A DNA stretch of 64,000 nucleotides from Argopecten irradians. Taxonomy: Eukaryota; Mollusca; Bivalvia; Pectinida; Pectinidae. This document shows, piece by piece, positions 2,961 to 33,458 of this stretch. The number at the start of each line of letters is the position of its first letter. The first letter of the stretch is position 1. The position numbers were made by a program, and so were the translations under genes. The notes beneath the pieces were generated by a model, which saw only the letters and a list, made by a program, of their open reading frames with translations, did no database searches and was not told the DNA's origin. The stretch spans positions 5,551,501 to 5,615,500 of the forward strand of contig NC_091144.1 of NCBI RefSeq assembly GCF_041381155.1, in the 5' to 3' direction.

Positions 2961-3278
2961 TCAGCTATATGACTGATACAGGTGAACACTTTCTTCGAAG
3001 AACCCTAGAACGTCACGTAGTAGTATATAGAGCCAGGAATACCGCGAGGTCTGTGACATAGTTTTATAACTGCTCGGCATTCGAACCTGGATCCGTTCCA
3101 CTGGTATACCTCGACTCTTCAGCAATATAGACAATTCACAGAGGATCCCCTTCACTTGATTCATAATCGTACTGATACCCCTTTTGTACACGAGAGAAAA
3201 TTCGTTTTTCTTCGCTAATCTGACGAACGCCAATATTTTCTGTAAGCCTTCGAAGTTATGTAACAAAGTAGCATTCAC
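2961..3278 (-). CDS. Candidate helical cytokine A, last exon (helices B to D)
   Basis: This is the terminal exon of the minus-strand gene that continues at 7000-7092 and 7897-8135. On the minus strand a pyrimidine-rich tract ends in ..ttttaacag at 3279, and the exon opens with GTG in phase 0, giving 105 codons and a stop ending at 2961. The product is almost entirely predicted helix: a first segment with FEGLQ and A..RLA, a second with NQVKGILCELSILL, a variable loop, then a Trp-containing amphipathic helix (SWLYILLRDVLGFFEESV) at the C-terminus. An N-A-T glycosylation site lies at the start. The order of hydrophobic helices matches helices B, C and D of long-chain class I cytokines; that is inference, because no residue-level family signature can be proven by eye. 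The exon resembles 33105-33458 in position, phase and landmarks. Confidence 0.6.
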   Translation of the reverse strand: MNATLLHNFEGLQKILAFVRLAKKNEFSLVYKRGISTIMNQVKGILCELSILLKSRGIPVERIQVRMPSSYKTMSQTSRYSWLYILLRDVLGFFEESVHLYQSYS

Positions 3279-3670
3279 CTGTTAAAATAGACAAAATATG
3301 ACAGCTATTGCACATGTAGCAAATTAAAAAAAAACAAAAGAACTATCTCCTTTGTATACTATAATCCCTCGTCTGAAATGGAATAGACGATTTAATTTGT
3401 CGTTATGTCATTGATATGACTGGAGATGACAAAGTGGCGAAATACAATAGAACTGAACTCGGACTTAAATACGGTATAAACACACTTGAGTTTTTGTCCT
3501 CGGTCATCCTTCAGGTGATGTGATTGAATGTCAATGGTCGTGGAATTTACATTGTACAATGCATCTAGGTAGTTATCGTATAAATGTCCCTAATACTCTA
3601 GTATACCTACCATACACCAAAATAGTTTTAATTATTCCCATCCACACATAATGGTGATTCTGATCTACTA

Positions 3671-3760
3671 CTGTGATAATTATTGATAATATAACACTGC
3701 ATCCTGTTAGTCTGACTGTGATAATTATTGATAATATAACACTGCATCCTGTTAGTCTGA
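3671..3760. repeat. 45-bp perfect tandem duplication in intron
   Basis: Units 3671-3715 and 3716-3760 are identical and each starts ctgtgataattattg. They lie in the intron between the last two exons of candidate cytokine A. Confidence 0.95.
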
Positions 3761-4188
3761 AGGCTTATAATTACATAACGGAGAATATGCTATTGCAATT
3801 TAATGGGACCTAAAATGGAAACATGATCAGCACACTTTTAGCTTGCTATATAACGTGTATATTGCTGGATTAAAGTGATACCTGTATCCTAAAATAGCAT
3901 ATCTGCTTACGTCAGAAAAGTTTAAAGAGAATGGCACCAAACAGCATTTGATCATTTCTGACGTAACGACAGCTATATATATGCATATGATCAGATAATA
4001 TTTCTAAACGTGTCAATGCCAATAACCTGCCCTAGAGATACAGACCGTTCAACCGTTAACCCATCTAGTTAAGTATTAACCTAATAATTAAAACTCGGTG
4101 AAAATCTTCTTGTCAATATTGACAAATTTTTCACACTTGTTTAATTTATGCATGTTAGAATGGTTACCTACTATGACAACTACAAACT

Positions 4189-5283
4189 CAGTGGCGTAGG
4201 AAGATGAAACGTAATGGGGGGGCAAAGGTCCTCAATATTTTGTAAACCCCCCCCCCCCCCCCCCCCGCCGAACCTACAGGAGGAGATTAATTCAACTCCA
4301 ACCCATGTATGCTTTATGTACATTTTTCATATATCATTAAATTTAATCCTTGTACACATCTATAGACAGTGGGGTCGCTAAAAGGAAATTAACGAATACG
4401 CAAATTGGCCAAATTAGCGTGTGAGCGCCGAAGGCGCGAGATTTTGGGGTTTTAGGGGTCTGAGGGTGACCCCCGGGAAAAATATTGTAATTTAGAATGA
4501 CTGAGATGAGTTTTACAGTGTATTTTGATGATTTTGCGAGCGCCTGAAAGCGCGAGATTTTGGTGTTTGGGGGGTCCGGGGCCTCCCCCGGGAAAAATAT
4601 TATGATTTAGAACAGCTTAAATGAGTTTTGATGAATTTGCGAGCGCCCGAAAGCGCGAGATTTTGGTGTTTGGTGGGTCCGGGGGTTTCCCCCGGGAAAA
4701 AAATTACCATTTAGAATGGCTTAGATGAGTTTTACGATGCATTTTGATGAATTTGCAAGCGCCCAAAGGCGCGAGAATTTGGTGTTAGGGGGTCCGGGGG
4801 TCTCCCCCGGGAAAAAAAATTACGATTTAGAATGGCTGAGATGAGTTTTACGATGTATTTTAATGATTATAAAGCGTTCTCAACATGGTAATTTTTCGAT
4901 TTAAAGCTACCTGCATTTAGAAATGATAATTGTGTCGTCATAACATTATGCAACCCTACTAAATGAATTAATTGTCTCGCTAAGACATAAACAAATTGAT
5001 CTTTTAAGAGACATTTTTTTAAATAGTACATAGAATCCCTTGATGGACATGTTTAGTCTAATATTCGTGTGTATTGAATTTTCACTATTTAAGGTTTGAC
5101 ATTATATGCTTGAACGTTTTAGGAAATGCGTCGCGCAGCGGAAAATTTTCTAGAATGAAGTACGAAAAATGTGCAGGAGGACCCTTTTTCCTTTCAAATA
5201 AGCATTTTTAGAAAATTTCAGTCGGCGAAAATGGGGGGGCAAAAAGACATGTTTGCCCCCCCGTCCTGGGGAACGGGGGGGCA

Positions 5284-5329
<46 letters not shown>

Positions 5330-5344
5330 CTTCCTACGCCCCTG
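4189..5344 (+). mobile_element. Non-autonomous DNA element, poly-C/G family, copy 1 (complete)
   Basis: The element starts CAGTGGCGTAGGAAG (4189) and ends CTTCCTACGCCCCTG (5344). The ends are inverted repeats of 15 bp with one mismatch, flanked by a direct AAACT on each side (4184-4188 and 5345-5349), read as a 5-bp target duplication. Inside are a G7/C-run hairpin near the left end, four degenerate units of about 110 bp each carrying 'gagcgcc.gaaggcgcgag' and 'ccccgggaaaaa' (about 4420-4860), an AT-rich spacer, and a long C-run at 5287-5328. No transposase is visible. Copies 2 and 3 are at 39414 and 55226. Superfamily is not assigned. It sits in the long intron of candidate cytokine A. Long C-runs are prone to length errors in assemblies. 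Confidence 0.8.
4420..4860. repeat. About 110-bp internal tandem repeat of the poly-C/G element
   Basis: Four degenerate units start near 4420, 4537, 4638 and 4756. Each has a 'gcgcgag' palindromic core, a 'gggggtc..cccccggg' short inverted repeat and an AT-rich 'gatgagttttac' tail. Copy 3 of the element (55226-56157) has only two such units. Confidence 0.75.
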
Positions 5345-6697
5345 AAACTATCAATGGAGAATATCCCCGATTTACATATCTGTACAAATCATTGGCTAAG
5401 ATTCGTGTACAGGGCAAGGCGTTTTATTTTGCAAGCATATTGAATTACAACCGTGGTGTAGGAAATGTCTATATTATAGCTAGCTATATTATATAGGGAT
5501 TTTTTAATGTGTTTGTGGTTACATAAAAGATGCAAAGAAGTATACGTTTTTGGGACAAAATGCAGAATTTGTACATATCAAATAAATTGCTGCAATTAGT
5601 CATGCCATGGTAGTCATCATGTATGTATATAGGTTTCATATATATAGGCCATATTTGTGTCATTTAATAAAAAATCGCATTTGTATTTGAAGGTCAACTA
5701 GCATTCAATATTTCAAAAAGTGTGGGGAATATATATTTTGAATATTATAGCGTAAGTACAAATGTAATATGGTATAGTGTATTACCAATTGGTAAAGACA
5801 TGTAGTTGATTCATATAAGATGTATATTATATGCTGAAAAGTACAATTTTTCCATGATGTACAAATATTAGGAAACAAAAAAAAACAAAAAAAAAAGCAG
5901 CTGACTAATTTACACACTAAGAGCGAGATTTATTTTTAGGTATCATAGATACTAACCATTGATCATGTTACGGTCGTTAAACTGCGTTATAGGCTAAGCT
6001 AGCGTTTTACTCCCTACATGAACTTTGAAAGGTTAAACCAGCCTACACGACACTATAAGACAACTTTGCCCCCGTAAATTAAATACATTTCACTCCTACC
6101 TTTAAACATACCGATGGTACGATACAAGCTCGGAGCCATTCACAGTAAAACCACAAGTTAGATGAGATATTTACGGTTTACCTATACTACAAGCAAGAAC
6201 GTTCATTTTTGTAATTCCGGGTCGATTAACTACCAATTATAAATAGTAATGTAGACAGATGATATATGTGTAGGTTGAGGTTGTAACTTTATTAATTCTT
6301 GTATATGTTATTATTTTTTTATTGATAATTCGACAATTGTTTAGCTATTTCATATATAACCTATATTTATATATTTCAAACCAGATCATATCGTACATAT
6401 TTCAAACGAAGAGAAATGCTTCAGCCGACGTGCTTACGGCTTTTACATGAGAACATTTCATACTTAAGAGAGAGTACATCCTTTTCCCCGATAAAAATTC
6501 TTTTCATTGGTCATTTTCTTTAGACGTCACAATGTGGTATATAACATTTTTACTTTTTTTATACAAACAAACGAAAAATTGCCGCACAATAAAAAAACGT
6601 GTACTTTTGTGTAATTTGAAATGAAATAGAGCTTCTTAATCGGTATAGTGTTGAAGGCAAAGATAAGTACGATTTTTGAAATTCCTACTGTTATTGA

Positions 6698-6827
6698 AAC
6701 GTATCTTAATACTTCGATCAATTCGTAACTATTCGTAACAGTATCACCTACCCATCAACAAAAACGTATGTTAATACTTCGATCAATTCGTAACTATTCG
6801 TAACGGTATCACCTACCCATCAACAAA
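6698..6827. repeat. 65-bp tandem duplication in intron
   Basis: Units 6698-6762 and 6763-6827 are nearly identical, differing at about two or three positions. Each contains acttcgatcaattcgtaac. Located in the same intron as the poly-C/G element. Confidence 0.9.
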
Positions 6828-6999
6828 GCAAAGATCAGTTGTAGGAGCGAATGGTACGTTGAACGTGTATAGACTTAGCATGGGTTTTTTTATCACTTTT
6901 TATGTTTTGTATGAAATAAAATTTGTTGAAATTGAATTGTACGTTAAACGTGTTTTGAATCACTTAAATGTTCTTTGTTATACTACATAAGAAACGTAC

Positions 7000-7092
7000 C
7001 GTGGTTTCGGTGGGATTAGGGGGGAAGCCAGTCAACCGTGACGAAGAATGCAGCAGTGCAAGCAGACTAGAGTCCTGTATCTTATTGACAGC
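7000..7092 (-). CDS. Candidate helical cytokine A, short middle exon
   Basis: A 93-nt exon too short to appear as a separate long open frame. On the minus strand the acceptor ..gatttcag precedes GCT at 7092 and the donor ACG|GTACGT follows 7000; both boundaries are phase 0, matching the exons either side. It encodes 31 residues, beginning AVNKIQDSSLLALL and containing TGFPPNP. The paralogous exon at 31841-31942 has the same phases, almost the same size (34 codons) and a GFP at the equivalent place. In vertebrate IL-6 and G-CSF the third exon is also short (about 36-38 codons) and phase 0 on both sides; this comparison is from memory. Confidence 0.6.
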
Positions 7093-7896
7093 CTGAAATC
7101 AAATAAAACCATTTAGTTTAAACAATATTTAAATAAACAATGAATATAAATTATTTGAAAGAAAACTTCTCATTGATCATATTTTTCCATTGCATTTGAT
7201 GACATCCACCAAAACATCATGACTATAATGATATATTAGAAGCAGATATCAGAACAATATCAATGTTCTGTGATAACATTTCCATATAATAGAGTTATTG
7301 ATGATTTAAACTATATAAAATCCTTTCATATTCTAAATCCAACGCATGGCAATGCAGGATAAATTTGTAAGTATCGATATAATTGTATTTGTTTTATTAG
7401 TATACTACGCAGTTGAAGAGATCATTCAAACAATACGTAACGGTATTGTTCGTATTTATTTATGCTCTTTTACGAACTGTTTTGCTTGTATTTGAAATGT
7501 AAAATATGAATGACCCTCCGCTTCTCGACCCTTTACTTTATCTGAATAGTTTACCTGATGATACTGTATATCAATATAAAATTCATCATACTCTGTGGTG
7601 TACGTCCTATTGATTGCGTAATACGCCATTTCCCCTTATTTGAATTAAAAGTTACCAAATAATAGCAAATCGCCCATTATTTTCGGTATAAATAACTTAT
7701 GTCCCCGGTAGCAGTGTGATATGGAGGTTGATTTATCCTCGGATGTAATATTTCTCCTCCCCCCGGGCAAGGCCTCCGGAAATATCACACCTTCAGGTAA
7801 ATAAGCCTTCATATCACACTGCGACCGGGGCCATAAATACATTATATTAAAGTATCCATGTTCGTAATGAAAATTCATGATTTTTTTATTACTTAC

Positions 7897-8135
7897 ATAT
7901 TGCGATTTCAGATTTTTCGTTGTGTCGGCGATATATTGACATTTTATGACTAGTCGTTGTGACACCTCTGACAGGGAAACACTCTCCGCGCGTGCTGTAG
8001 CCAATGGGATCTCTGTAGTCAATGTCCCATCACCACCGTGTCCACCACAAAAACTGACATTGTCACTGTCACTGGCATTTCCAGTTCCGAATTGGTATAT
8101 CAAGAATATCAGCAACAGTTTACTTAATCCGGTCG
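7897..8135 (-). CDS. Candidate helical cytokine A, signal peptide and helix A exon
   Basis: Minus-strand exon with acceptor ..catcgacag before 8135 and donor TAT|GTAAGT after 7897. It opens with two bases completing a codon (phase 1 intron) and ends in phase 0. The 79 codons start with a hydrophobic stretch (LLLIFLIYQFGTGNAS) that reads as most of a signal peptide. A polar region follows with an N-V-S glycosylation site and a Gly-rich FCGGHGGDG, then a helix-prone SLSEVSQRLVIKCQYIADTT. The start codon must lie in a short upstream exon above 8135, which I could not identify. Reading through the acceptor would add an in-frame start at 8241, but it precedes a second hydrophobic stretch and is less convincing. 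Role inferred: secreted helical signalling protein. Confidence 0.55.
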
Positions 8136-11100
8136 CTGTCGATGAAACAATAGTGTGTGTTAAAGTGAATCTTATAAAAAAAAATACGAAACCTGTAATT
8201 AAATATTGTCTAATGTTCTTGATCAAGCATTTTCCATACATTTCTCATATCGAAATATTTTTTGCGGGGTTTATAAAAACATAAATGATGTTTTGTCTCA
8301 TTATTTGCATCATCAAACAGTACTATTCAATAATAATGATATGGAGACGTTATCTCTTTTCAATCCATATTCATAGCAGATGGATATTTTAGAGCAAATT
8401 ATTTTTCATAAAATATATAGCCATATCCTGAATTATCAGTGAAAACTTGGAATAATTTCCAACTCATTGTATTATTTGCAAATCAATAGAGAATAGAAGC
8501 TACAAGTGCTGATGTACATGTAAAATACCAATGAAATGAAAGGTTCTTCTAAATAATTACTATAAATACATACAAAGAGCAAGCATCGCCATGGTGCAGT
8601 AATGTTGATAGATAAAACAATGAAATCTCAATTTTCTGCTCTCCTTTTATACTCACCTTATCCATCCCTGTCGGCATTCGGTCACCCTTGCATTTTCTTG
8701 GATTTCCCACCAAACTATTACCTTAAACCAAGCCAAGAATCAAGCCTAGCTCCAAATATGGTTACGTCTACAATTGACGTTTGTACACGTGCCGGCGTTC
8801 TGTTGTTGGATACACGTGGTTTCCGGAATGCCTCTGGCTATTTCATACCAATGCAAGGTGGGCAGGTATATAATATGGTGTTTAGATACACCTACTGGAA
8901 AAATGCTTTGATATTAATTAAAAGGACTTTTTTAAATGCGGAACAGGATGTTTCTCCTTAAACACACATACAATCATACTAACGTAAAGTTAAGTTTCAA
9001 CCACTTCCATTCATGGCCCGTATGGGTGATGAGCCTCTTAAGCGTAAAATGAAGATACATTGAACAAAGCACACAATAAATGTGTAAAAACTAGATCGTG
9101 CTGGAAAGTTAAACATCAAATGAAAATATCTTGTGATGTCTCTAATACACTAATCTACGAAATCACGTTAAATGGTCCAATCCTTTTATTTCGAATTTCT
9201 TTTGTGAATTCCACTAAAACAATGAATTAATCTGCGATATGATGCATGACCTAACTTGAACACGTTTGTAAATATCGTACCATGAAAATCGTGATATCTT
9301 TATAGTGCAGTTCGGAGAGCAGATTTGGAGGTATTATAGTGCAATATATATTGAATGCTTTGGTCGTTAGTTCGCTTATTTTGTAAATACTTGACATGGA
9401 GTATGTTTTGAATTATTTCCTGTCATCATTTTGCTTTCATGCTCCCCTCTTGCTGTTTTCTATGGTCGATCACCATTGTACAATTAGTAGTAACATCTTA
9501 GGGCGGCTTTTCCTACCTAATCAAAGAACATCATATTTGCCACAGCATGTAGAAATAAATATTAATAACAAATGTAGCACAATTTACGTTGAAACATAAT
9601 TAAATAATAAACATTTATGTATTTTCTGAATCATTTGAATCAAAGCAATATTTTTTTCTCAGTGAAACATTGCGTTTGTGATTCATTTCCTGGTGTCTTC
9701 TGATAGACCAACATTATGTGGTACGTATAAGGAATAAACACAATTTGAGGAACTGTGGCAAATAAAAGAATACATAAGATATCGTCAAACTGACCCTATC
9801 ACAACTCAAAAAATAGGAAGGTGAACCCACATATAACATACTTTACTTTTATTTTGTATCTTATGTCCAACGGCTTTCCCCTGGCGATTCTATTTCGCAG
9901 TAGTTTTAAGTCATAAAATAGAATCATTATACAGTGATTGAAACTTTTTTGTGGCGATTATTTTAATCAGACTCTTATTACCCAAAAAATATGCGAAATA
10001 TGATCACACTCGTAAATAACACCGGGGTTCGCTTCTCCTTCCACTTTTTTATATATTTTTGAACGTATCATTTTTAACGTTCATGTTGTAGACGCTATAT
10101 TATTCGGACCATTTACTTGTAACGCCAAATAGTCAAATATAGCCAGAGAATGTATAACGATGGGCTCCGAAATACCACGTATGTTAATTACATGTTTGGT
10201 GTCTACTGATGTGGAGATCTGATAGAAAACACATTATCACATTGATCCAATGTGAAATTAAACGATAATGCGACATGACAGTGTAATGCTTGTATGACAT
10301 GCTTGGTGACCTAGTATCGAAGCGCTCCCACTTCCTGAGTGTCTGGTTCACTGCTCGTTGTAGGTATGTAGTTGTGGTGGTGTCTACAAGCTCATCTATA
10401 CTTTTTAACATGCGCCCTGTCTTTGTTAGTTTTTTTTATTTTATTCTTGTCCAGATATTCGTTTTTCCCCTTTAAATAAGTAATTAATGAAATATTTCAG
10501 CCAAGTCATTATGCATTGTTCATTGTAAATTGACAAAATTAAAAATCATCGATTATATCAATAATTAATGTTTCATGATGTTTTAGATTTGGGTTGCATG
10601 ACTAGTTGTTTGCACGGTTTTATGAATAGAAACACCATTTAATGTGAATGTTACAGTCAATCAAATTACTTGTTCCTGGTAAATGGACGTGTGGAGAATG
10701 ACGTCATCACTGTGACAAACGCCTGATTGGGGAATATCGTATGTTGTGTGGAGGAAAGGCTTGTAGCGTCCTCACGGTATGCTAGTGATTAATTGCACTG
10801 ATCCGCTGGAGCCATATTTCCTGGCTTTCGTATGACACTTTCATTTTCTATTTTAATTGAATAATCAAATATTCCATGTAAGATCTTAAAGGGTGTTAAG
10901 AAGAACAAAAAAAATAACGAATTTCATAAAATCTCGTTTTAAATGAACGTAAGCTTTGCAAATAATCTTAACGTCAAAATGTGTTGCGAAAATTCAGCGG
11001 AGATCGTCATTTTGTTACTACATCCTAGAATCATGACGTGATATTATTGTTTACTGACGTCAATTAAAGCCATATCGTCACAATGGTTAATGGTTTTCTA

Positions 11101-11299
11101 GCCAATGAAAAACGCTCCAGGATGTATATGCATATTACAATCTAGTGATATATGCAAAAAATATTAAAGAGCCGGACACTGGATATTCAAACGAGAACAA
11201 ACGTGATACTATAATACCCATGTATTTATACGATAGACTAAATTTACCTAATACACAAGCTGCTAAGGCATCTGTCATTTACTTCTATTAGCTCTTCCT
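8136..11299. other. No supported gene; upstream of candidate cytokine A
   Basis: AT-rich DNA between the first recognised exon of candidate cytokine A and the TTAA-flanked element. It should contain the missing 5' exon and promoter of that gene on the minus strand, but no ATG-plus-donor combination stands out. A plus-strand open frame at 8602-8961 has no splice context or recognisable domain. Confidence 0.4.
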
Positions 11300-11479
11300 T
11301 TAACCCCTTAACTCCCAAGAATTTTTAGCAGAGTTCCCGAAAATCCGACATTTTCTTTCAAAGTGATTTTTCACCCTTTTGCATCAACAATTTTGGTAAT
11401 CAACCCATATATATTTAGAAACTTTAGATCACAACCTTTTCAAATTTTGTAAGAAAAATAATGTTTTCACATTAATTAT

Positions 11480-13924: not shown

Positions 13925-15432
13925 TACCTATATTTATAATATGAAACATGCTATACTTTATATACAATGAATGATATCACAGTGCAATTCATGCTTATGA
14001 ATTTTGCTCTAGAATTACAACCTGATAATGCATTTTGTATATTTTTGTAAAGAGAAATTCAAATATACTTACTCAACATAAATGTGCCTTGGAATCCTTG
14101 GTGCAGTTACACTACAGTATAATTCAGCTGTCAATGTAAGTTCATAACAACTGTTATGTAGGCTTGTATCATCAATAACGTCGATATCACTACAAAGTTT
14201 GTTTGTTGAATATCCTAATCAGAAGGTTGGTCATGTTGTTTTGGTAACGATTTAGGTAAAATGTCCACATACATTCTGCACGTGGGCCCGTGTTGTAAAT
14301 CGAAAGTGGCTGTCCCGGTCAGGAAATACCCTACTACTATAAATAGATATCGCTGTCGTCAGCATCATATAATTCTTGTTCTTAGTCAAACAATGTTTTA
14401 AAATTCATTATTCTAATGATAAATTTAATATATTTCTTGTGTAAATTTTATCTTATATTTATATCGTTTGAGAAAATCAACTCAGAATCGATGCCCATCT
14501 TCCTCGCACAGGTGCTTGTTTTGTACCGATGACGTCAACATATTAGAAATTGTACCGGACCGCGATTTCCGTCGAAACTACTAGCAGATTTGTAGAGGCA
14601 ATAGAAAACTTATTTCGGCATGTAATGAATTACAAATTTGTGTATTTTGACCAGTGGTTTCTCGGCTTTCTTGGTATGTATGGTAAATGGATATTTTGCT
14701 TATTTTGTATTAGGATTTCGTCGAAGTTTACTGTGTAGTACACATGGTACTTATTACATGTACTAATGCTACGAGAAAAAATAATGTTAGAACGAATTTC
14801 TTTCAATATAATTAGTCACACATAAAATTGACATTATCAACTACAAAATCCGTGAAATACAAGTATTATTTCTTGCTACTTGTTGCATAATTCGAGATAC
14901 AATGTCGAATCTTCGCTCCGGCGATTTCGCCGTCTGACACACGACGTCAACAATTTAAAAATGCTCGGAATTAAGTTGGCATGAAATTTTAACTCATTGA
15001 AAGAGAAAAATGACGATGCCATATGAATTTTTTCTCAGAACAAAAGTTGTCGGCTATTATCTGTAGTTTTACAGGATGTAAACAGTATCCCAATAGCTCA
15101 ACAAATAAGGGAGATATTGCGATTTTTCTAACACCGACACGAAAATGCGTAGAAATGCGTAGTTGGGAGTTAAGGGGTTAAGTGATTACAACGTCATGTC
15201 TTGAAGTAATTTTGTGGCGTAACATCGGAAGGCGGGACTAATCGACGCCAATAGTACTCCATTTGGTGTTGCGAAACCCCGGTATTTATCGTTTCTCCAT
15301 GTTTTATATGATATTTACATTGTTTCAGCGTTATTTCTGGTATATGTGTTTCGATTTAATTTACTTAATAAGAAGCCATGGAGTATGTTTCTCCTAACCA
15401 ATGAAGGAAAGATGACACTTAGGAAGCGTTAT

Positions 15433-17489
15433 ATTGGCCCTAGACATGGAAGGGGGCATATTTGTCCTAACAATTGAAGGGGTAGGCTTATTCTAACCAA
15501 GGATGGGTGGAGGTTTGTCCTAACCAAGGAAGGGTGTAGGTTTGTCCTAATCAAGGAAGGGTGTAGGTTTGTCCTAACCAAGGAAGGGTGGAGGTTTGTC
15601 CTAACCAAGGAAGGGTGAAGGTTTGTTCTAATCAAGGAAGGGTGGAGGTTTGTTCTAATCAAGGAAGGGTGGAGGTTTGTCCTAACCAAGGAAGGGTGAA
15701 GGTTTGTTCTAATCAAGGAAGGGTGGAGGTTTGTCTTAATCAAATAAGGGTGGAGGTTGGTCCTAACCAAGAAAGGGTGTAGGTTTGTTCTAATCAAGGA
15801 AGGGTGGAGGTTTGTTCTAATCAAGGAAGGGTGGAGGTTTGTCCTAATCAAGGAAGGGTGAAGGTTTGTTCTAACCAAGGAAGGGTGGAGGTTTGTCCTA
15901 ACCAAGAAAGGGTGAAGGTTTGTCCTAACCAAGAAAGGGTGTAGGTTTGTCCTAATCAAGGAAGGATGAAGGTTTGTTCTAATCAAGGAAGGGTGGAGGT
16001 TTGTCCTAATCAAATAAGGGTGGAGGTTTGTCCTAACCAAGAAAGGGTGTAGGTTTGTCCTAATCAAGGAAGGGTGAAGGTTTGTCCTAATCAAGAAAGG
16101 GTGGAGGTTTGTCCTAACCAAGAAAGGGTGAAGGTTTGTCCTAACCAAGAAAGGGTGTAGGTTTGTTCTAATCAAGGAAGGGTGGAGGTTTGTCCTAATC
16201 AAATAAGGGTGGAGGTTTGTCCTAACCAAGAAAGGGGTGTAGGTTTGTCCTAACCAAGAAAGGGTGTAGGTTTGTTCTAATCAAGGAAGGGTGGAGGTTT
16301 GTCCTAATCAAATAAGGGTGGAGGTTTGTCCTAACCAAGAAAGGGTGTAGGTTTGTCCTAATCAAGGAAGGGTGAAGGTTTGTTCTAATCAAGGAAGGGT
16401 GGAGGTTTGTCCTAATCAAATAAGGGTGGAGGTTTGTCCTAACCAAGAAAGGGTGAAGGTTTGTCCTAATCAAGGAAGGGTGAAGGTTTGTCCTAATCAA
16501 GGAAGGGTGGAGGTTTGTCCTAACCAAGGAAGGGTGAAGGTTTGTCCTAACCAAGAAAGGATGGAGGTTTGTCCTAATCAAATAAGGGTGAAGGTTTGTC
16601 CTAACCAAGAAAGGGTGAAGGTTTGTCCTAATCAAATAAGGTTGGAGGTTTGTCCTAACCAAGGAAGGGTGAAGGTTTGTTCTAATCAAGGAAGGGTGTA
16701 GGTTTGTCCTAATCAAATAAGAGTGAAGGTTTGTCCTAACCAAGGAAGGGTGAAGGTTTGTCCTAACCAAGGAAGGGTGTAGGTTTGTCCTAATCAAATA
16801 AGAGTGAAGGTTTGTCCTAATAAAATAAGAGTGAAGGTTTGTCCTAATCAAGGAAGGGTGGAGGTTTGTCCTAACCAAGGAAGGGTGAAGGTTTGTTCTA
16901 ATCAAGGAAGGGTGGAGGTTTGTCCTAATCAAATAAGGGTGGAGGTTTGTCCTAACCAAGAAAGGGTGAAGGTTTGTCCTAACCAAGGAAGGGTGAAGGT
17001 TTGTCCTAATCAAGGAAGGGTGAAGGTTTGTCCTAACCAAGAAAGGGTGAAGGTTTGTCCTAACCAAGAAAGGGTTGAGGTTTGTCCTAACCAAGGAAGG
17101 GTGGAGGTTTGTCCTAACCAAGGAAGGGTGGAGGTTTGTCCTAACCAAGGAAGGGTGGAGGTTTGTCCTAACCAAGGAAGGGTGTAGGTTTGTTCTAACC
17201 AAGGAAGGGTGTAGGTTTGTTCTAATCAAGGAAGGGTGGAGGTTTGTCCTAACCAAGGAAGGGTGTAGGTTTGTCCTAACCAAGGAAGGGTGAAGGTTTG
17301 CTCTAATCAAGGAGGGTGGAGGTTTGTACTACCCAAGGAAGGGTGTAGGTTTGTCCTAACCAAGGAAGGATGTAGGTTTGTCCTAATCAAGGAATGGTGT
17401 AGGTTTGTCCTAATCAAGGAAGGGTGTAGGTTTGTCCTTACAAATTAAGAGTTATCTTGGTCCTAGACAAGGAAGGACGAATTGTTCAG
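15433..17489. repeat. 27-bp minisatellite array, about 75 units
   Basis: The unit is gaagggtggaggtttgtcct followed by aaYcaag (27 bp). Common variants are ggtgaagg, ggtgtagg, caagaaagg and caaataagg. Degenerate edge units on both sides share 'cctagacaaggaagg' (near 15441 and 17461). Certain variant triplets recur as blocks (a ttctaatcaagg unit, then a caaataagg unit, then a ccaagaaagg unit), showing higher-order duplication. Because 27 is a multiple of three, the minus strand is open for over 600 codons as a nine-residue RTNLHPxLV repeat. A single extra G near 16235 shifts the frame between 16229 and 16222. I regard these frames as by-products of the array. Confidence 0.95.
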
Positions 17490-20291: not shown

Positions 20292-20311
20292 CATATCTAC
20301 GTAACTACAAG

Positions 20312-20509: not shown

Positions 20510-20522
20510 AATCATGATACAT

Positions 20523-22243: not shown

Positions 22244-25200
22244 TTATCAGTATTTTGATATAAAATATACAAGCATATACTATAATGATAATTATTAAAA
22301 TACTAGAGTAATGGGTCTTTTCCAGCTCATGTGACAATCACATCAAAGTTACAAATATTACCGAACGGAGTCGGAAAATTCATAACCCGTACCCGGAAGA
22401 CTTAGGTCAGACGTTACGTATTAAAAAATTAACCCATTTATTTCTTTGACCTATAATTTGAATATAAAACAGCTAATCTAGACTTACAATCAATGGGAAG
22501 ATTTCAAAGGTCCGCGTTTTAATTGGTTGTCACTTGCAGTAAAGATATCGACAGCCTCAATATATATAACACTATATATCGTCGGATATGTTTATAACAT
22601 TAGTTTAGAATTATACTCTTAGTTAAAACTCAGACCACTTTAAAAAATTGAAAAATAGATTCGTATGAAAAAATAAGATAGAAGCATGGAATTTATGTAG
22701 GTTCATCTCAACATGATATGTTGCGTCTGTCAGCCCAACTGTATTTCTTTTAAATCACTTCTTTCGAAACAAAATGGCGTTAATTTCATCATCACTGACT
22801 AGTCTAGAATGACTACCTTGTAATGTGGGAACTGGCTTTCATGTTTAAGAGTTTAAAAATTAGTTTGTGTTAAGAAACATTTGTGGCTGACCTATTATTC
22901 AAATAATCCGTGGCTTTACAGCACCAAAGAAAACAAGGTCAGCTTATGTATAACGAATATTTCCTGTAATACAGATCAATATATCGTATATTCTTCATCC
23001 TATTTTTATTGTAAGAAGTGGATCAGACAGTGTAAATAATACATACATTTGACCATATGTATTAGACTGCGTGGAAGCAGCAAGTTCTTTGAATTAATAC
23101 TTGTCATAGTGATGTCTTTAACAACATTTTGAAAATTAAAGCACCGCCGAGGAACAGTGGACAAACGTATGCACGCGTCTAGCATTAAATTTATTTTATT
23201 TGATAAAAAGACATTTCTTTATAACGTCTAGGCAAGCAATACAGATCCCCTAGACCTCCTGTTATTCAACAACTTAATGTTCTGATCACGTGATATGAAT
23301 GTATTCTGGGATAGGTGATAACATCCTTGTTCAGAAGGATATGTACTGTCGCAATTTTTAAACAAATTAAGACAAAGACGTCATAGTCGTCTGCGCTCCT
23401 GCATTAACCATAATGTCTACATTTAGTAGTAGTGGATTGATTTCAGTCAAATTGTATAAAAGATTAACGACTTTATCATTAAATGATATATAGTTATATG
23501 TAGAGTGATGTGGTGGCATTAAAGAACCCGAACACACATTTAGCCGTCATTGCGTAATACAGAGTTAACTCCCCTGCGGAAAGGTGTCTATTATGACGAC
23601 ATTATTTTTCTACAATAATTGACGTTACCCTCGCAAACATATTACGTCAGAAATAATTCCAATACGCAGGGGCAGATAACGCTTTATATGCAAAGACGGA
23701 ATACATTTTACTTATAAAAGTAGAAAAGTACGAGGAGCATCGAATTTCCTAAAACCGACCTATTTCCGCGGTGACCTATTTTTACGTTATCGTGTTTAAC
23801 CACTGTTTCGAGGTGATTTCATTTTGCGATTCAGATTGTGTCTATGTGGTTTCATTTTACTGGTAGATTTCTACTTTTGAAATTTACCCTCCGATTCATC
23901 TTAAAGATCACTTATTTCATGTGAAAACTGGATAACAGTGTTACTCTTTGTGACTAAAGAACTTGTAAAACATTTAAAATTGATCAGTTACCAGTTTCAT
24001 TAAGTGATCTTTATATCCCTCACTCTCACGATATATTATACTTCAGAAACATATCATTTAGGAGCTTTGTTTCTATGAGCCTCAGTGCTATGAAGTTTTA
24101 TAAAGAGTATATGAATCTGTTATCTGATATTGTTGACATGCCATAATATAAACCAACCATCTTGCTGAACTTGACAGCTGTGTATTTATAAGCGAAAGTA
24201 TCTATGTATACAGACTTACAATTACGATTTTTCTTAACAAAAGTCATTAGAAGATGTATTATGCAATTTTCGGTTAATCTAAGTGTTTAAAGGAGTAATG
24301 ATTAAAACATTTCAAAATATAATCTGATTCATGAAACAATGCTTGGCTTACTGCATGGAGTTGTGAAATGTATGCATTCTCATTATTTTAACATTTAGAA
24401 AGCGTTGGAAAGCACTGGAGTTAGGTTATTTAAAATTGACCACCAAATTAATATTTATTTCGAAATATCTCATAATATTGCAAATATTTTAAAGAAATAT
24501 CGAACGACAAGGAAAAAATTCTAAATCTGGAAATTCACAAAGTGCAAACCAGGAAGAGGCGAAGCATTAAGATTATGTATATAGATGATATATCTGTCAT
24601 CTGTCACTTACTTAGTGACAGGTCGCGTGATGTCATTCTGTACGTGCTTAGATCATTGTTGTTTTAACTTAGTTACTAATGTAAAAATACCAGTGGAAAT
24701 TTGATCTGATTCACGTATAAGCTGGTACACATAGTCCTGCATCGTCAGTCAACAAGCATGCATTACCAGAGCTATTTACTGGGTCATAAAGACTACCTTT
24801 GCAGAATACTAACGGATGCCGTGATGCTATGATAAGAAATTGAATTCGTCACAACTTCTTTTAATATTACACAAGCACAACTATCATATTTACGTTTTCT
24901 TTTATTGTACATGTCTCCATCGATTAAATTTTTTGTTAAACAAAAACTAACTAATTGAGTTTAATAATGTTCTAGTCGCTTACTTTCATTTTCTTAAAAT
25001 CATTCCATCGTTTTGCCATATGCCACATTGAATGATTGATAGACGCTTGCATTTCTGTGTGTTTCAATAATTACTTATTTCTTTGATAGAAACACGAATA
25101 AATAACAACGAGTAAAAACACCTTTATAAAAAAATCAAAACACATTTTGAATATATTTAAATGTACTGTAGAGTGGATTAAAGTAAAGTGTAAAATGGAA

Positions 25201-25317
25201 TAAAGTAGAGTGCGATGTGGATATTTTTGTGTATTTCACTTTCGATATCCGTGAATGTTTTCACGTGCATGCATATCAACAAGTGGAAATCTTGTCATTA
25301 CCAATTTAATCAAAGAT
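22244..25317. other. No recognisable gene or repeat
   Basis: About 3 kb of AT-rich sequence with stop-dense frames on both strands. No repeat unit or coding signal seen. Confidence 0.4.
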
Positions 25318-27300
25318 GCATAATATCCACAAATATAAAAATATCCAAACACAAAAATATTAACACACAAAATATCATATAAACACACAAAATATAAACA
25401 CACAAAAATATCCATACACAAAATATCAACACATAAAATATCCGTCCACAAAATATCATATAAACACACAAAATATAAACGTACAAAAATATCACCACAA
25501 AAAATATCCACACACAATATATCAACAAACAAAATATCCACACACAAAATATCAACACACAAAAAATCCACACACAAAAATTCCGCACACAAAATATCAA
25601 CACAAGAAATGTAAAAGCACAAAATATCCACGCACAAAAATACACAAAAATATCAACACATAAAATATCAGCACTCAAAATTTCCACACACAAAATATCC
25701 ACACATAAAATGTCATATTCACACACAAAATATCCACACACAAAATATCAACACACAAAATATCAACACACAAAATATCAAATCAAAAAATTATCACACA
25801 CAAAAATATCAACACATAAAATATCATATCAACACACAAAATATAAACACACAAAATATTAACGCATAAAATATCTTATCAACACAAAAATATCCACACA
25901 CAAAATATCAAAACACAAAATACCATCTCAGAAAATATCCACACACAAAATATCAACACACAAACTATCCACACAAAATATCATATCAACATACAAAATA
26001 TTAACACACAAAATATCAATACACAAAATATCAAAACACAAAATATCAAAACACAAAATACCATCACAGAAAATATCCACACACAAAATATCCACACACA
26101 AAATATCCACACACAAAATATCAACACTCAAAATATTAACACACAAAAAATCATATCAACACACAAAATATCAACACACAAAATATCAACACACACAAAT
26201 ATCATATAACACACACAAATATCATATAAACGCACAAAATATCATATAAACACACAAAATATCAACACACAAAATATCAAAACACAAAAATATCAACACT
26301 CAAAATATCAACACACAAAATGTCAACACACAAATTACCAACACACAAAATATCAACACTCAAAATATCAACACACAAAATATCAACACTCAAAATATCA
26401 ACACTCAAAATATCAACACACAAAATACCAACATACGAAATGTCATATCAACACACAAAATATCAACAAACAACATATCCACACACAAAATATCAACACA
26501 CAAAATACCAACACACAAAATGACAACACACAAAATATCATATCAACACACAAAATATCAACACACAAAATATCAACAAACAACATATCAACACACAAAA
26601 TATCAACACTCAAAATATCAACACACAAAATGTCAACACACAAAATACCAACACACAAAATACCAACACACAAAATATCAACACACAAAATATCAACACA
26701 CAAAATATCAACACACAAAATATCAACACACAAAATACCAACACACAAAATACCAACACACAAAATATCATATCAACACACAAAATATCAACACACAAAA
26801 TATCAACAAACAACATATCCACACACAAAATATCAACAAACAAAATACCAACACACAAAATGACAACACACAAAATATCATATCAACACACAAAATACCA
26901 ACACACAAAATGACAACACACAAAATTTCATATCAACACACAAAATATCAACAAACAACATATCCACACACAAAATATCAACACACAAAATATCAACACA
27001 CAAAATACCAACATACGAAATGTCATATCAACACACAAAATATCAACAAACAACATATCCACACACAAAATATCAACACACAAAATACCAACACACAAAA
27101 TGACAACACACAAAATACCAACACACAAAATGACAACACACAAAATTTCATATCAACACACAAAATATCAACACACAAAATATCAACAAACAACATATCC
27201 ACACACAAAATATCAACACACAAAATACCAACACACAAAATGTCAACACACAAAATCAACACAAAAAAATATCAACACACGAAAATATCAACGCACGGAA
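25318..27300. repeat. 15-bp minisatellite array, about 130 units, G-depleted plus strand
   Basis: The unit is aacacacaaaatatc, with variants aaaacca, aaaatgaca, caaacaacatatcc and an extra 'atcat' insertion that recurs at intervals. Left units are diverged; right units (26280-27260) are nearly identical and show higher-order blocks of roughly 150-170 bp. The plus strand is almost without G, so the array is strongly strand-asymmetric. Open frames of up to 264 codons (HTKYQ or HTKIS repeats forward, DILCV reverse) follow from the 15-bp period and are not called as genes. Confidence 0.95.
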
Positions 27301-27551
27301 ATGTCTGCACATAATAACACAATCATAAAATTAGAGGAAAATGATAACAGAACAATAATAAAGATAAAACAGTATACTGTCTGAGCAAGCTCAACTCAGT
27401 ATCACGTTTTTTACGATATTTTAAGAAGTTCTGGGTCGAATACGTGTCATTTTAATTCATATAGCAGTCTGAAATGTGGAACTTTCTGGAATATTCGTAT
27501 AAACTCATTTATTTTTCTAAAGAGTTCTGGCACTGATATCAATAGCAAATG

Positions 27552-27861
27552 TTAAAGATGCTCCACCGCCGACAGAGCATAAAAGATATTCATCACTTGA
27601 ACAATAATTGGTGTTTAATCGTGTATATATATGTCTAATTAACACAAAAAATGATATAGAATAATTTATTTCGCCTTTGGTGCATGCGCAATTAATTATT
27701 TTTCTGATTTTTAACTTGAAGTAAAATTAGAAGCTCATACTCTTCAATAATGACAATGGTGTAAAGTCAGTAACTTTTGTAACCGAAGAAAAATACTAAA
27801 TCGTCTACTCATGTTTTTGATAGTGAAAAATTATCATTTGTCAGCGATGGAGCAACTTTAA
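27552..27861. mobile_element. TTAA-flanked MITE, about 310 bp
   Basis: Begins TTAAAGATGCTCCACCGCCG at 27552 and ends with the inverted form CGATGGAGCAACTTTAA at 27861. The terminal repeats match at about 20 of 23 positions and both outer tetranucleotides are TTAA. The interior is AT-rich with no coding capacity. The ends resemble a repeat I recall from bivalve sequences. Confidence 0.7.
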
Positions 27862-29441
27862 GTGAGCTTTATGGAGAGTTTAGATCTGTTTCATGTGAAC
27901 GATGAATGAAGAGGGCACTCAATATGCATGGTGTGCGGATGGCGGTAAAGGAACTTAATTAAAGTGATATCCAAGATGAAGAGGGGAAATACGTCTTCAT
28001 TGAGCAGAAGGACAAGTAGTATTTATCAATTAGGTCATGATACCAACCATAAAACTTCCCCTCAGTCTTCTTAAACCTGATCCAGTTATAATAACATTGC
28101 ATGGATAGCCATTCCTTAAAGCCTCAGATAACATGATATAGATATCAGGAATATATATCCATAGATAAATATTTAACACCATTGCTCACATAATTAAAAT
28201 TTCGCAAATACACGCACTAATTAAAGCACGACTATCAAGAAATGTTTGAAATTAATAGTGGATCAGAAATGATAATCGTAAGACTCGATCAACCGTTAAC
28301 TACCTTTGTTATCCCCCCACAGCAAGTTACTATAGCATGACCTACTCAGCGGGATCCGGAAAGTGGAATACAAATCTGACCTGAATTTACACATTCCAAA
28401 AAGCCATGTGTTTATGTCACTCACTACACTAAATAATTTTGTAAATCTAACATGTCTGTTTGTCATTTGAAACTGAGAAAACGAAAGTCGTTGTCGCTAT
28501 TTAGATACATTGTAGTAGTATTTCTATGACAGCGGTCCAGACACCTTAGCGCACACAAAAACTAACTGTAACGAAACAGTACGAAAAACGCATTACAGTG
28601 TGACCTGACAAGATGCAAAAATCAAACTCAATTGCTACCCCAGTTTTAAACCAAAATGTAAGTTCTATTTTCCATAGTCGTACAAATGTAATCGCTTATT
28701 TAATATTCGTTTAGTAACTTCAACATGGTAATACAAAAAAAAACTATAATGTCCCCTCAAAGAGACTTCTGAATAAGAACGATGTAAATAAAGCAGTTTG
28801 CTCCGTCGGTGCAAGTGACATCTGCTTCCGTATCCGCCCTAGCTGTCTAGATCAGACATGGTTATGTCAAATGTCAAAATTAATAACGCTGCACGCCCGA
28901 ATATGGTGTTAATAAAGCAGAATGTATATAGTATGACTCTCATTAATGGTATAGTTATGATTATTCGATGCTATTAAATGTAAGTTTTATCATTAATCGT
29001 TTTGTCATGAATATGTTAGCTAGAATGATATTATCTCATAAATCTGTTATTTTTTGAAATACCAAATTCTAAGCAATTCAAAGTCTAAGTGTATAGCCTA
29101 AAAAGAGCGACGAAACACTAATCAGACAGAAATTAACAGATTTTGCCTTTAATGATAATCGACCGAATTCAAAATGCTACAATTTTTTTGTTTATTATTT
29201 AACTTGATTTTTTTACATGCAATTAAGGGTTTAAAAGCATCACCTGCAATATATAAAAACGCATATATGTGACAGTCTAGTAATGAAAATAAAACTTTAT
29301 TTAAAGAGGATTACATGCTCAGCCAAAGGCTAATCTACCCTAAGGTCCTCAAAGGTTAGAACAGCATTTTATGGTTAGAAAAAATACATTTTACATGAAT
29401 ATTAATAACATCAGAGTCACGTGAGTCTTACCCTCGGAAAC
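27862..29441. other. No recognisable gene or repeat
   Basis: AT-rich sequence between the MITE and the 17-bp array. Nothing supportable was seen on either strand. Confidence 0.4.
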
Positions 29442-29813
29442 CTAGTGTCTAAACTCAACTAGTGTCTAAACTCCACTAGTGTGTAAACTTAACTAGTGTC
29501 TAAACTCCACTAGTGTGTAAACTTAACTAGTGTCTAAACTCCACTAGTGTGTAAACTCCACTAGTGTGTAAACTTAACTAGTGTCTAAACTCCACTAGTG
29601 TCTAAACTCCACTAGTGTGTAAACTCCACTAGTGTGTAAACTCCACTAGTGTGTAAACTTAACTAGTGTCTAAACTCCACTAGTGTGTAAACTCCACTAG
29701 TGTCTAAACTCCACTAGTGTGTAAACTCCACTAGTGTGTAAACTTAACTAGTGTCTAAACTCCACTAGTGTGTAAACTCCACTAGTGTGTAAACTCCACT
29801 AGTGTGTAAACTT
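29442..29813. repeat. 17-bp minisatellite, about 22 units
   Basis: The unit is taaactccactagtgtg, with two main variants (ccactagtgtg and taactagtgtc) that alternate in blocks. Every unit contains the palindrome ACTAGT. Confidence 0.95.
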
Positions 29814-31363
29814 TACTATACGTCCCGTTTATGTCGGGTAACTGGCAATGCATCAGTCAATCAGATAGCCCTATATTATCATTAAGATACTTGTTAAATA
29901 CATCATTGATAAGTGAACTATTACACACTGTATATCACAGTCAGCGTTAATTACAAGTATCACAGAATGCACAAACAATAGTTGCACAAAGTTGATTTGT
30001 CACTTAAATGGTATTACTACCGCATAATGTATATATCAATTATCATTATTTAACATGGGGTCGTTTAATCATCTCGTTTCTAATATATGAATCTATTGCT
30101 ATGTCCTTACAAAACACTTGGGTAAACTTGATTATAACTTTTAGTTTCACTACATATCCAAATTCGTGAAAATAAACAGAAGAGACTGTTTTCACTATAC
30201 AGACATCTGATATGGAACGGATGATTCCAAAAAACAACCAAATGCTACAAAATTTCCCAAACTAAAACGTATTTAATTGATTTTGACCGAACATTTCTCG
30301 AGTATTAAGTAAAAATTGGAAGGAACATCGTGACACCTATTAATGTCAGCTATGCATTCATACTGTAAGTATAAAATTACATTTTACTTTTTTATAGTTA
30401 GTATATCTGAGCGATGTATGTATTCGGTGGGTGGTAACAATAGTGTTTGCCGTAGAATTAGGACAAACAATAGGAAAAGGTCTAAATAATACATAGCGTA
30501 TGACTTAAGATATCGGTGATTCAGTGTTTGTGAGTTGAAAGATACATTGAAGTATTTTCGAGGTGTCTCCGCTTTTTGTTGGAAGGTGAGAAGAAGAAAT
30601 TTTAAGACTGTATCATAATTGTTTATTCGGTTTAATCTTCCGAGTTGATGTCCCATTCGCCAATGCCTCAGTAGAAATACTCGCAATATACATGTAAACC
30701 CAATGAATGTTCATATTCTGGTCACCTAGTTCTCATAGGATTTTATTTACTACAGTGTTTTACTTTTAATGTACCACTGAAGCATTGATGTCAATCTGTT
30801 ATTTTTTTCCTTTGATTTTTTTTTATATTTTATATTCTGCATCATATTCCATTACAAAACATTATCTCTTTGGGGACTGAAAATACTCGAAAACTGTTTG
30901 AATATACGAAGTGAGGTTTTATAAAGGTTTGCAACCAAATGATTTATTTCGGAGACTATAATTGAAAACATTTACACACATTTACTGAGTAGTCTTATAT
31001 GATTCCAAACATAGAACATTTTGGTTCATTAGTAACAGCGTAGCATGCCTACAATGTATTATGACGTCACTTTGAAGTTCTGTATAATACAAGATACGAA
31101 AAACAACCAGAACAGTGCATTTAAACAACAGATAAAATATATTTTAAAATGTTTTACTTATAAACTCCTGGTCATTGCTCAAACATACACAGAAATCTTC
31201 ACTCACAAATGTACACATATTTCTTTTTTTATCATAAAACACATTTTTGCATAGAATACAATTTAGGATTCCTTTCGTAAACCTGAGTCAGTAAGTGGTG
31301 GGTTACATGTGTCGGACGATGTAGTCGCAATCTAAACATAATAATAATGATTCATTTTTTCAG
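29814..31363. other. No supported exon; upstream of candidate cytokine B
   Basis: AT-rich DNA. The short first exon and promoter of the plus-strand gene starting at 31364 should lie here. A consensus donor GTAAGT is seen at 31291, but no ATG-led frame leads into it, so no exon is assigned. Confidence 0.4.
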
Positions 31364-31680
31364 ACTTTGGTATCTGTTTCGTTGTGCTAATCTTGCCATG
31401 CGCACAAACCAGACCCGCAAACAGGACAACGAGTAACCTTGACGATCATCGCTGGAACCATCCCTGCTCTGCTAATTCACTTCCGGTTCTTCACGCAATT
31501 GTCATCAGCGTTTTGCCTGCGAATCAAGAACTTCCAGACTATGACATCAGGCGGATTCTATCGTCATCTCTAATGATAATAAAGGAAACGATTGAAATAG
31601 TAAATTCAGCATTGGTCACGATTGAAGGAAACATACCTCACTCCCCCTATCACACAACTGCCAGGAACATGATCGACGTG
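31364..31680 (+). CDS. Candidate helical cytokine B, signal peptide and helix A exon
   Basis: The acceptor ..ttttttcag ends at 31363 and the donor GTG|GTATGT follows 31680. The exon opens with two bases (phase 1 intron) and ends in phase 0, as in candidate A. It begins with a hydrophobic core, FGICFVVLILPCAQ, read as the rest of a signal peptide. An N-R-T glycosylation site follows, then a Cys (HPCSAN), then helix-prone sequence around DIRRILSSSLMIIKETIEIV. It gives 105 codons. The initiating Met is not in this exon; the start is expected in a short upstream exon. The product is inferred to be a secreted four-helix signalling protein. Alternatives are another small secreted helical protein such as a saposin-like or lineage-specific effector. 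Confidence 0.6.
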
Positions 31681-31840
31681 GTATGTTTGAGAGTAATAAA
31701 ATCATGATTTCAAAAAAAGGATTTAAAAGCACTGAATCCAATAGAAAAATAAGGTATTGTTTCCATACTTACGGAACGGTACTGTAGAATATAAAATGTT
31801 ATATAATATGACGTTGATCATTGGAACGTCATTATTTCAG

Positions 31841-31942
31841 ACAACCTCCCGAGTGAGCTGTAGCGACATGACAGACTTGATAAGCAGAGTTTTCTATGAC
31901 GGGTTCCCGAGATGTTCCATACAAAATCTCTGTACTCCAGAT
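31841..31942 (+). CDS. Candidate helical cytokine B, short middle exon
   Basis: A 102-nt exon between acceptor ..ttatttcag (31840) and donor GAT|GTAAGT, phase 0 on both sides. It encodes 34 residues with three Cys and the sequence MTDLISRVFYDGFPRC. The GFP lies in the same place as in the 31-codon exon at 7000-7092. Extra Cys residues (VSC, PRC, NLC) are absent from candidate A, so disulphide patterns probably differ. Confidence 0.65.
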
Positions 31943-32859
31943 GTAAGTATGATTAATAAAACCAGCATAACAAACAAAACTTTGATGGCGGATAGTTAGC
32001 AGAAATTAAATTCGTGTAATAAATCTGAAATACGATAAACAGATTAAGCCACGCGAGAAATAACAAGTTGAAAACCATTTTTAACTTTAGTTAGTACTTG
32101 TATCATTCTGTAATTTTTTTGTAATGTAAAGAAACATTTTCCTGCCATGTATACGCTTAAATGTGTTATGGGATTCATATTTTTGTCTTCTTTCTACCGA
32201 TTCTTTGTTGTCAGTGCCTCATATTCTCTATAGTAAGGTAGAGTTCTGTCCCTTATGGTCCAATGACAATGATGGTTTCTGTACCTGTTGAGCCTTCAGT
32301 ACCCAGAAAATAGGAGAATGACTCGCCGGATGTAAATATTTTGTGTTCATGGCGTTCATACACAAATATCACTCTATATATACAAAACAAAAGTAATAAC
32401 TGCCGACAGCATAAAATCATTACACCTGAATAAACCTTCTATTTTGAGTCCCCGAAGAGAACGTCGATCATTTCATTTCATTTACATTCAATCAAGCTTT
32501 CAGTTGATTTGAAAATTTCATATGGTATAAAAAGTGAGTTTCCTGATTGTAACGTACAATAACTTCCTGTTTATGTGTAGTTCACACGTATGTACGTTCC
32601 ATATTTATTCTTCGACTACTACTGAAAGATATACATCTCTTTCGCTCTGAGAATTATTTTAACCTCAGAATAAATCATAATAGTTATTTCAATGTGAAGT
32701 ATTTATACAGCAACTTACTTTACAGCGTTGGCATTAACACTAGTATGCATCTGAGGAAAAATACGAATTGAAAATGAAATATGTTTCAGAGAACACAAAA
32801 TGTGGTGCAAATACGCCAGAATCCATCTTTATAGTATTCATTTGGTTTGGTGTATTATA

Positions 32860-32985
32860 TGAACGTCCTATTAACGTCCTAGGGTCATTTAAGGGCCTCC
32901 TGTGTGTGTGATGTGTGTGTGTGTAACGTCCTATTAACGTCCTAGGGTCATTTAAGGGCCTCCTGTGTGTGTGGTTTCTTGCGTG
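32860..32985. repeat. Bivalve-type dispersed repeat, duplicated, with GT-rich tract
   Basis: Two copies of 'cgtcctattaacgtcctagg' plus 'gtcatttaagggcctcctg', about 60 bp apart and separated by (TG)n. This word closely resembles a repeat I recall as abundant in bivalve genomes. Lies in the last intron of candidate cytokine B. Confidence 0.65.
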
Positions 32986-33104
32986 TGTGAAGTGCGAGGT
33001 GCGTGTTTTGAAAGACTCTTGTATATCTGTGATGTGATTTACTCTTACCCTTTTTACTTGTTACCTTTACTTATAATATTCGAAATGTTTTCATATATTT
33101 TCAG

Positions 33105-33458
33105 GTATACCGGCTGGAGATGTGTTACGAAGACCTACAGCTGACAGTGATAGCTCTGGAACGACTGGCACTCGGCAGTATACACCAATGGAGAGCTCAG
33201 TTCCCCTCTGAGGATGTCAACAGATTAATCACTAAAATATACGAAGTCATGTGTTTCTTTCTCGACGTGAAGACAGTTTTACAGAACAGAGTGGATTTGG
33301 GTGAATTCTATTCTTTATCAAATGGTAGATTTGAGGAGGTCGGAACAATGAGTGGGAGTGATTTCCAAGAACTGTCGTATATATCACTGCGGGGGATGAA
33401 GAAACTACTGTCACATCTAAAATCTATCATCGACATTCGAATCAGTATTCTCCAATGA
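33105..33458 (+). CDS. Candidate helical cytokine B, last exon (helices B to D)
   Basis: The acceptor ..atattttcag ends at 33104. The exon opens GTA in phase 0 and runs 117 codons to TGA at 33456-33458. Three long helix-prone segments are visible: YEDLQLTVIALERLALG; NRLITKIYEVMCFFLDVKTV; and a C-terminal segment, ELSYISLRGMKKLLSHLKSI, that ends in SILQ. Between the last two is a polar, Gly-rich loop, as in the long C-D crossover of long-chain cytokines. The pattern [FY]E[GD]LQ followed by A..RLA is shared with the last exon of candidate A. Spliced length from the three visible exons is 256 codons. A 34-bp minisatellite starts at the last base of the stop codon, so it forms the beginning of the 3' UTR. 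Confidence 0.65.
   Translation, partial: VYRLEMCYEDLQLTVIALERLALGSIHQWRAQFPSEDVNRLITKIYEVMCFFLDVKTVLQNRVDLGEFYSLSNGRFEEVGTMSGSDFQELSYISLRGMKKLLSHLKSIIDIRISILQ

Follow-up and report, generated by a model that had tools for sequence, protein, structure and literature searches.

Background

The long-chain class I cytokines of vertebrates fold as an up-up-down-down four-helix bundle with long A-B and C-D crossovers. In their genes, the first intron is in phase 1 and falls within the signal peptide, and IL-6, G-CSF, GH and IL-11 share the intron phases 1, 0, 0, 0 together with a short third exon. Here we analyze a 64,000-nucleotide (nt) stretch of the genome of the scallop Argopecten irradians (C11:5551501-5615500; “the window”, to whose positions all coordinates refer), which contains two candidate genes, gene A on the minus strand and gene B on the plus strand, ~23 kb apart, with an exon plan of this kind. 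Our best explanation, which we rate as an even call, is that they are diverged paralogues on the IL-6/G-CSF/EPO gene plan whose products are secreted four-helix cytokines of the long-chain, class I-like type. What makes class I plausible is the exon plan and its phases, the specificity of a motif-based scan, a match in putative helix B, a C-X9-C cysteine pair in gene B, the global alignment scores and the exon-4 helices predicted for gene A.

The closest described systems are summarized here from the available portions of the cited papers. The G-CSF gene comprises five exons in both fish and mammals (PMC6389648). EPO also has five, of which the third (nt 160-246) is 87 nt long (PMC5473850); with the start codon as the origin of this numbering, it would be a phase-0/0 exon of 29 codons. 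The type I interferon (IFN) genes of teleosts have four introns, all in phase 0 (PMC4929537). Among invertebrates, the Drosophila Upd proteins are secreted ligands of a gp130-like receptor (the Domeless pathway; PMC7378365), and a title cited there presents Upd3 as an ancestor of four-helix bundle cytokines. The oyster protein CgIFNLP resembles our candidates as a secreted helical cytokine-like protein of a mollusc and differs from them in being class II-like by description (PMC9756803, PMC8218723). In its available part, a 2026 survey gives IL-6-family ligands from vertebrates only, while tracing IL6R as far back as molluscs, and both JAK and STAT as far back as sponges (PMC13203501); insect Upd ligands aside, the ligand is the gap in this history. 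We found no report of a molluscan class I helical cytokine in the literature searched, the scope of which mostly excluded subscription papers and preprints.

Results and discussion

Shared exon plan of gene A and gene B

Both gene models were rebuilt directly from the window DNA (Table 1). An earlier note on this DNA had described, in each gene, a phase-1 intron within the signal peptide, a phase-0/0 mini-exon of 31 or 34 codons containing GFP, and a last exon that opens with Val; all of these are in the sequence, and the observation on exons, splice sites and phases is confirmed. In both genes, exon 2 is entered in phase 1 within a hydrophobic, signal-like stretch, an entry phase that is forced by exon lengths of 239 and 317 nt combined with a phase-0 exit; an alternative usable acceptor for exon 2 of gene A, at 8192, likewise gives phase 1. 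AG stands at all six acceptors, the four donors read GTAAGT (twice), GTACGT and GTATGT, and the frames are open across all three exons of both genes. The motifs [FY]E[GD]LQ and A..RLA, also listed in the note, can be read in both last exons, the former as FEGLQ in gene A and YEDLQ in gene B. N-glycosylation sites are predicted at two positions in gene A and one in gene B.

The two genes thus show the phase-1 first intron of long-chain class I genes and the short phase-0/0 exon which in that family encodes the A-B loop, here 31 and 34 codons against 36 and 38 in G-CSF and IL-6. They differ from G-CSF and IL-6 in that no fourth intron separates the putative helix B-C part from helix D, a single exon standing in for the final pair of the vertebrate genes, and in the absence of a C-X5-C pair and of any significant sequence match. 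LIF and CNTF have no intron before helix D either, but, unlike gene A and gene B, they have no separate mini-exon. EPO is near in the size of its short third exon of 87 nt (PMC5473850) and differs in its total of five exons. The uniformly phase-0 introns of teleost type I IFN genes are not found in gene A or gene B, and the phase-1 entry of the two genes speaks against class II.

To gauge the specificity of the plan, we scanned 283,999 bp on both strands for a phase-0/0 exon of 27-40 codons with G[FIYLVW]P and a good acceptor and donor and, no more than 4.5 kb downstream, an acceptor and a non-repetitive terminal frame of 95-130 codons. The scan returned exactly two pairs, gene B (plus) and gene A (minus), and any such pair appeared in just 1 of 20 dinucleotide shuffles, each scanned on one strand. 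As the criteria were derived from gene A and gene B, this demonstrates specificity and provides no independent P value. The three-exon plan alone was rejected as a specific signature: omitting the motif yielded at least 239 combinations on the plus strand versus 0 in 10 shuffles, and those listed were mostly tandem repeats or transposon frames. A stricter initial version of the plan scan gave 0 combinations, missing gene A and gene B themselves.

These results bear on the possibility that what we read as exons are splice-like signals and open frames that arose fortuitously in AT-rich DNA, or the remains of decayed pseudogenes, which we consider the least probable of the explanations weighed here. 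In its favor are the frequency of the loose three-exon plan within repeats, the lack of a codon periodicity above shuffles in gene A, discussed below, and exon 1, which was not located in the 6 kb scanned upstream (four candidates for gene A and four for gene B, none preferable). It is opposed by the frames that remain open in all three exons of both genes, the consensus-like donors, the hydrophobic signal-like starts, the rarity of pairs in the shuffled motif scans, and the base composition, the G+C fraction being 0.42-0.53 in exons versus 0.28-0.36 in introns, with the flanks also poorer than the exons.

Neither gene appears to have a further copy. A search of the 845.8-Mb assembly at E values up to 10 returned three matches for each gene, all of them its own exons, and tblastn in the 284-kb region gave no convincing tandem paralogue (the best foreign match, obtained with the 31-residue exon, had E 0.042). 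There were no viral relatives of either exon-4 protein in IMG/VR.

Similarity between the two genes

Over the whole chain, the alignment of gene A with gene B is at chance, and the global z for exon 4 is 0.35. Within the opening 29 residues of exon 4, however, the two genes match with z 3.4 (reached by 13 of 2000 shuffles) in a register that coincides with the exon start, the matching putative helix-B stretches being FEGLQ-KILAFVRLA in gene A and YEDLQLTVIALERLA in gene B. This comparison used the motif of the earlier note and was tested after the motif had been noticed; the same test on IL-6 versus G-CSF gives about the same value (z 3.5, 12 of 2000).

We also consider whether only one of the two genes is cytokine-like and the common plan is a coincidence. 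The whole-chain similarity at chance speaks for such a coincidence, and several features are confined to one gene: the cysteine pair and a codon periodicity above shuffles to gene B, a fairly confident helical model to gene A. However, the in-register helix-B similarity and the presence of the same plan in two genes ~23 kb apart argue against it, and we regard the coincidence as improbable.

Cysteines

Gene B contains LCTPD/VYRLEMC (the slash marks the exon 3/4 junction), that is, a C-X9-C pair with the junction between the two cysteines; the spacing is absent from gene A. The second disulphide of the IL-6/G-CSF subgroup, with this spacing, ties the A-B loop to helix B. In protein letters, G-CSF (C64, C74) and the second cysteine pair of IL-6 have the C-X9-C spacing too, and the exon 3/4 junctions of IL-6 and G-CSF also fall between the cysteines of this second pair. 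When six cysteines were placed at random, a junction-spanning C-X9-C arose in 0.5% of cases, or 2.3% if X7-X11 were allowed, an estimate made after the motif had been noticed. C64 and C74 of G-CSF form a disulphide (PMC2346455). Carp G-CSF is described in the available text as lacking the conserved cysteines (PMC6389648), and the C-X9-C of gene B is for this reason supportive rather than defining.

Comparison with vertebrate cytokines

Global alignment of gene A gave z values of 1.4 with G-CSF, 1.0 with LIF, 3.6 with CNTF and 1.5 with IL-6; the corresponding values for gene B were 1.9, 0.8, 1.6 and 2.0. All eight are positive (mean 1.85 for gene A and 1.58 for gene B), and reversing the target lowered the score in 8 of 8 comparisons (means 0.27 and -0.19). 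Over the whole chain, gene A scores highest with CNTF, at z 2.5-3.6 across alternative alignment settings, under which most other values lay between 0 and 2; the scores of both genes with LIF are near chance. Exon by exon against G-CSF, three of the six comparisons stand out: exon 3 of gene A (z 2.6, 37 of 2000 shuffles), exon 4 of gene B (z 2.6, 19 of 2000), and exon 3 of gene B (z 3.0, 24 of 2000), although the last alignment is not a sensible one. The others gave z 1.6 and 0.7 for exons 2 and 4 of gene A and 0.4 for exon 2 of gene B. We keep gene A and gene B as candidates and do not assign them to the IL-6 family, the pairwise scores being weak.

Searches of Pfam and PDB with gene A and gene B found no match, a result of low power. 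When human LIF and CNTF are the PDB queries, neither recovers a cytokine family besides its own, IL-6 finds G-CSF only at E 1.6, and G-CSF as query finds IL-6 at best at E 0.33. Because known cytokines also miss each other in this way, the silence of Pfam and PDB is uninformative, and we rejected it as counter-evidence.

Predicted fold of exon 4

We modeled exon 4 alone, with its putative helices B, C and D, using AlphaFold2 on single sequences with no alignment. The gene A model (predicted local distance difference test, pLDDT, 80.7; predicted template modeling score, pTM, 0.68) has three long helices and one short one, at residues 3-25, 34-55, 69-73 and 76-103. The gene B model is of low confidence (pLDDT 49), with helices at residues 2-32, 36-60, 65-76 and 84-116. 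The three helical segments that the earlier note had placed in the last exon are hence borne out by a fairly confident model in gene A and appear only in a low-confidence one in gene B. As proof of a cytokine fold, the models were rejected: their fold matches are not specific, with generic bundles scoring higher and the register differing from that expected. The matches listed for gene B exon 4 include no class I cytokine, which proves nothing.

Weighing the class I assignment

Several results weigh against class I cytokines. Neither model, each covering exon 4 alone, shows the cytokine topology. Whole-chain scores to vertebrate cytokines are only slightly above chance, and the putative helix-B stretch of neither gene resembles vertebrate helix B more closely than expected by chance. 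In a block-order test, for which we cut each protein into five blocks and ranked the true order among all 120 orders, gene A ranked 20, 58, 5 and 53 and gene B 6, 39, 20 and 17, compared with 1, 1, 52, 2, 1 and 34 for vertebrate pairs. The absent Pfam and PDB matches belong on this side as well, with the low power described above. Finally, once its coding segments are concatenated, gene A has a 3-base periodicity no stronger than that of shuffles (766 of 2000 reach it); gene B exceeds its shuffles (23 of 2000 reach it), and background stretches attain the gene A and gene B values in 18 of 50 and 6 of 50 cases, respectively.

The absence of a profile match, the weak alignment to vertebrate cytokines and the unspecific exon-4 fold matches also speak for the view that gene A and gene B are real secreted helical signals of a lineage-specific family that is not homologous to class I, whether class II/IFN-like, as CgIFNLP, or a new family of helical hormones. 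The oyster IFN-like protein provides a precedent, having a class II-like structure on record (PMC9756803, PMC8218723). However, a phase-1 entry followed by a short phase-0/0 exon fits long-chain class I and not teleost IFN (PMC4929537), and the C-X9-C of gene B also points away from such a family; we judge it unlikely, though the strongest of the competing explanations. The proposal of the earlier note that these are class I-like helical cytokines stands in part: it is favored by the exon plan and the gene B cysteine pair, and it draws no help from Pfam or PDB, from the modest pairwise scores or from the exon-4 topology.

Pathway context

If gene A and gene B are long-chain class I-like cytokines, exon 2 would encode helix A, the mini-exon the A-B crossover, and exon 4 helices B, C and D. 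The signal peptide would direct release of the proteins from cells such as haemocytes, after which two receptor-binding faces may clamp two class I (WSXWS) receptors of the gp130/Domeless type; such clamping would activate JAK and lead to phosphorylation of STAT. Two loci in the same genome score above the cut-off of the STAT DNA-binding profile. The class I receptor profile PF09240 had no match in the genome, and the 14-genome control was also without a match.

A broader and more tentative proposal, which we hold with somewhat less than even confidence, is that class I ligands with the vertebrate exon plan were present in the bilaterian ancestor and survive here as a linked pair invisible to sequence searches, in which case they would be the missing ligands of the molluscan IL6R/JAK/STAT module. 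Were the two genes class I cytokines, the ligand-receptor system would long predate jawed vertebrates, and relatives that sequence similarity misses could be sought by their exon plan.

Feature coordinates and surroundings

Table 1. Exons of gene A and gene B and other features in and beyond the window (positions relative to the window)
Feature	Position	Strand	Length	Splice sites and phase	Content
Gene A exon 2	8135-7897	minus	239 nt	AG acceptor, GTAAGT donor; phase 1 in, phase 0 out	Signal peptide remainder, N-terminal tail, putative helix A (judged by eye)
Gene A exon 3	7092-7000	minus	93 nt, 31 codons	AG acceptor, GTACGT donor; phase 0/0	Putative A-B loop, contains GFP
Gene A exon 4	3278-2961	minus	318 nt incl. 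stop	AG acceptor	Putative helices B, C, D
Gene A 3' flank	2261-2960	minus	700 nt		10 ATTTA, one TTATTTAWW
Gene B exon 2	31364-31680	plus	317 nt	AG acceptor, GTATGT donor; phase 1 in, phase 0 out	Signal peptide remainder, tail, putative helix A (judged by eye)
Gene B exon 3	31841-31942	plus	102 nt, 34 codons	AG acceptor, GTAAGT donor; phase 0/0	Putative A-B loop, contains GFP and the first Cys of C-X9-C
Gene B exon 4	33105-33458	plus	354 nt incl. stop	AG acceptor	Putative helices B, C, D; second Cys of C-X9-C
Gene-like frame	37303-37932	minus			Sub-threshold ACI44 carboxypeptidase-inhibitor match (E 2.1e-4, 21.8 vs 27 bits)
Gene-like frame	38868-39254	minus			No family match
Gene-like frame	40046-40534	minus			No family match
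Retrotransposon frames	40742-44038	plus			Non-long-terminal-repeat type: PHD finger, endonuclease, reverse transcriptase, in-frame stop (domains scanned piecewise)
Tandem-repeat array	15429-17328				Long, open in several frames
Tandem-repeat array	25236-27384				Long, open in several frames
Tandem-repeat array	49193-53336				Long, open in several frames
TIR-domain frame	133101-133835	plus			22.9 bits, cut-off 21.3
Twin frame	108347-109705	minus	453 aa		Nearly identical to the next
Twin frame	112474-113832	minus	453 aa		Nearly identical to the preceding

The flank 3' of gene A holds ten ATTTA (Table 1), an element that, like TTATTTAWW, is typical of unstable cytokine mRNAs. We rejected this AU-rich element as anything beyond a hint, since a count of at least ten ATTTA is seen in 58 of 1070 GC-matched windows; the gene B 3' flank has 2 ATTTA in 600 nt.

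The three gene-like frames on the minus strand lie within a few kb of gene B. Rfam gave 0 matches in the window. Beyond its ends, the flanks hold a rhodopsin-type receptor, a TIR protein and a nuclear-receptor ligand domain, the last of which finds a vitamin D receptor best in PDB (only 98 bits), ahead of nematode-type DAF-12 (81 bits) and LXR (75 bits). These modest scores, the presence of just two loci above the STAT cut-off and the PHD finger of the retrotransposon frames are indirect signs of an invertebrate genome; a COI fragment used as a query gave no match, in a search run with no positive control. The TIR-domain frame, of immune type and on the same contig, is ~100 kb from gene B. The twin 453-residue frames, ~4.1 kb apart beyond the right end of the window, are either a recent tandem duplication or an assembly duplicate.

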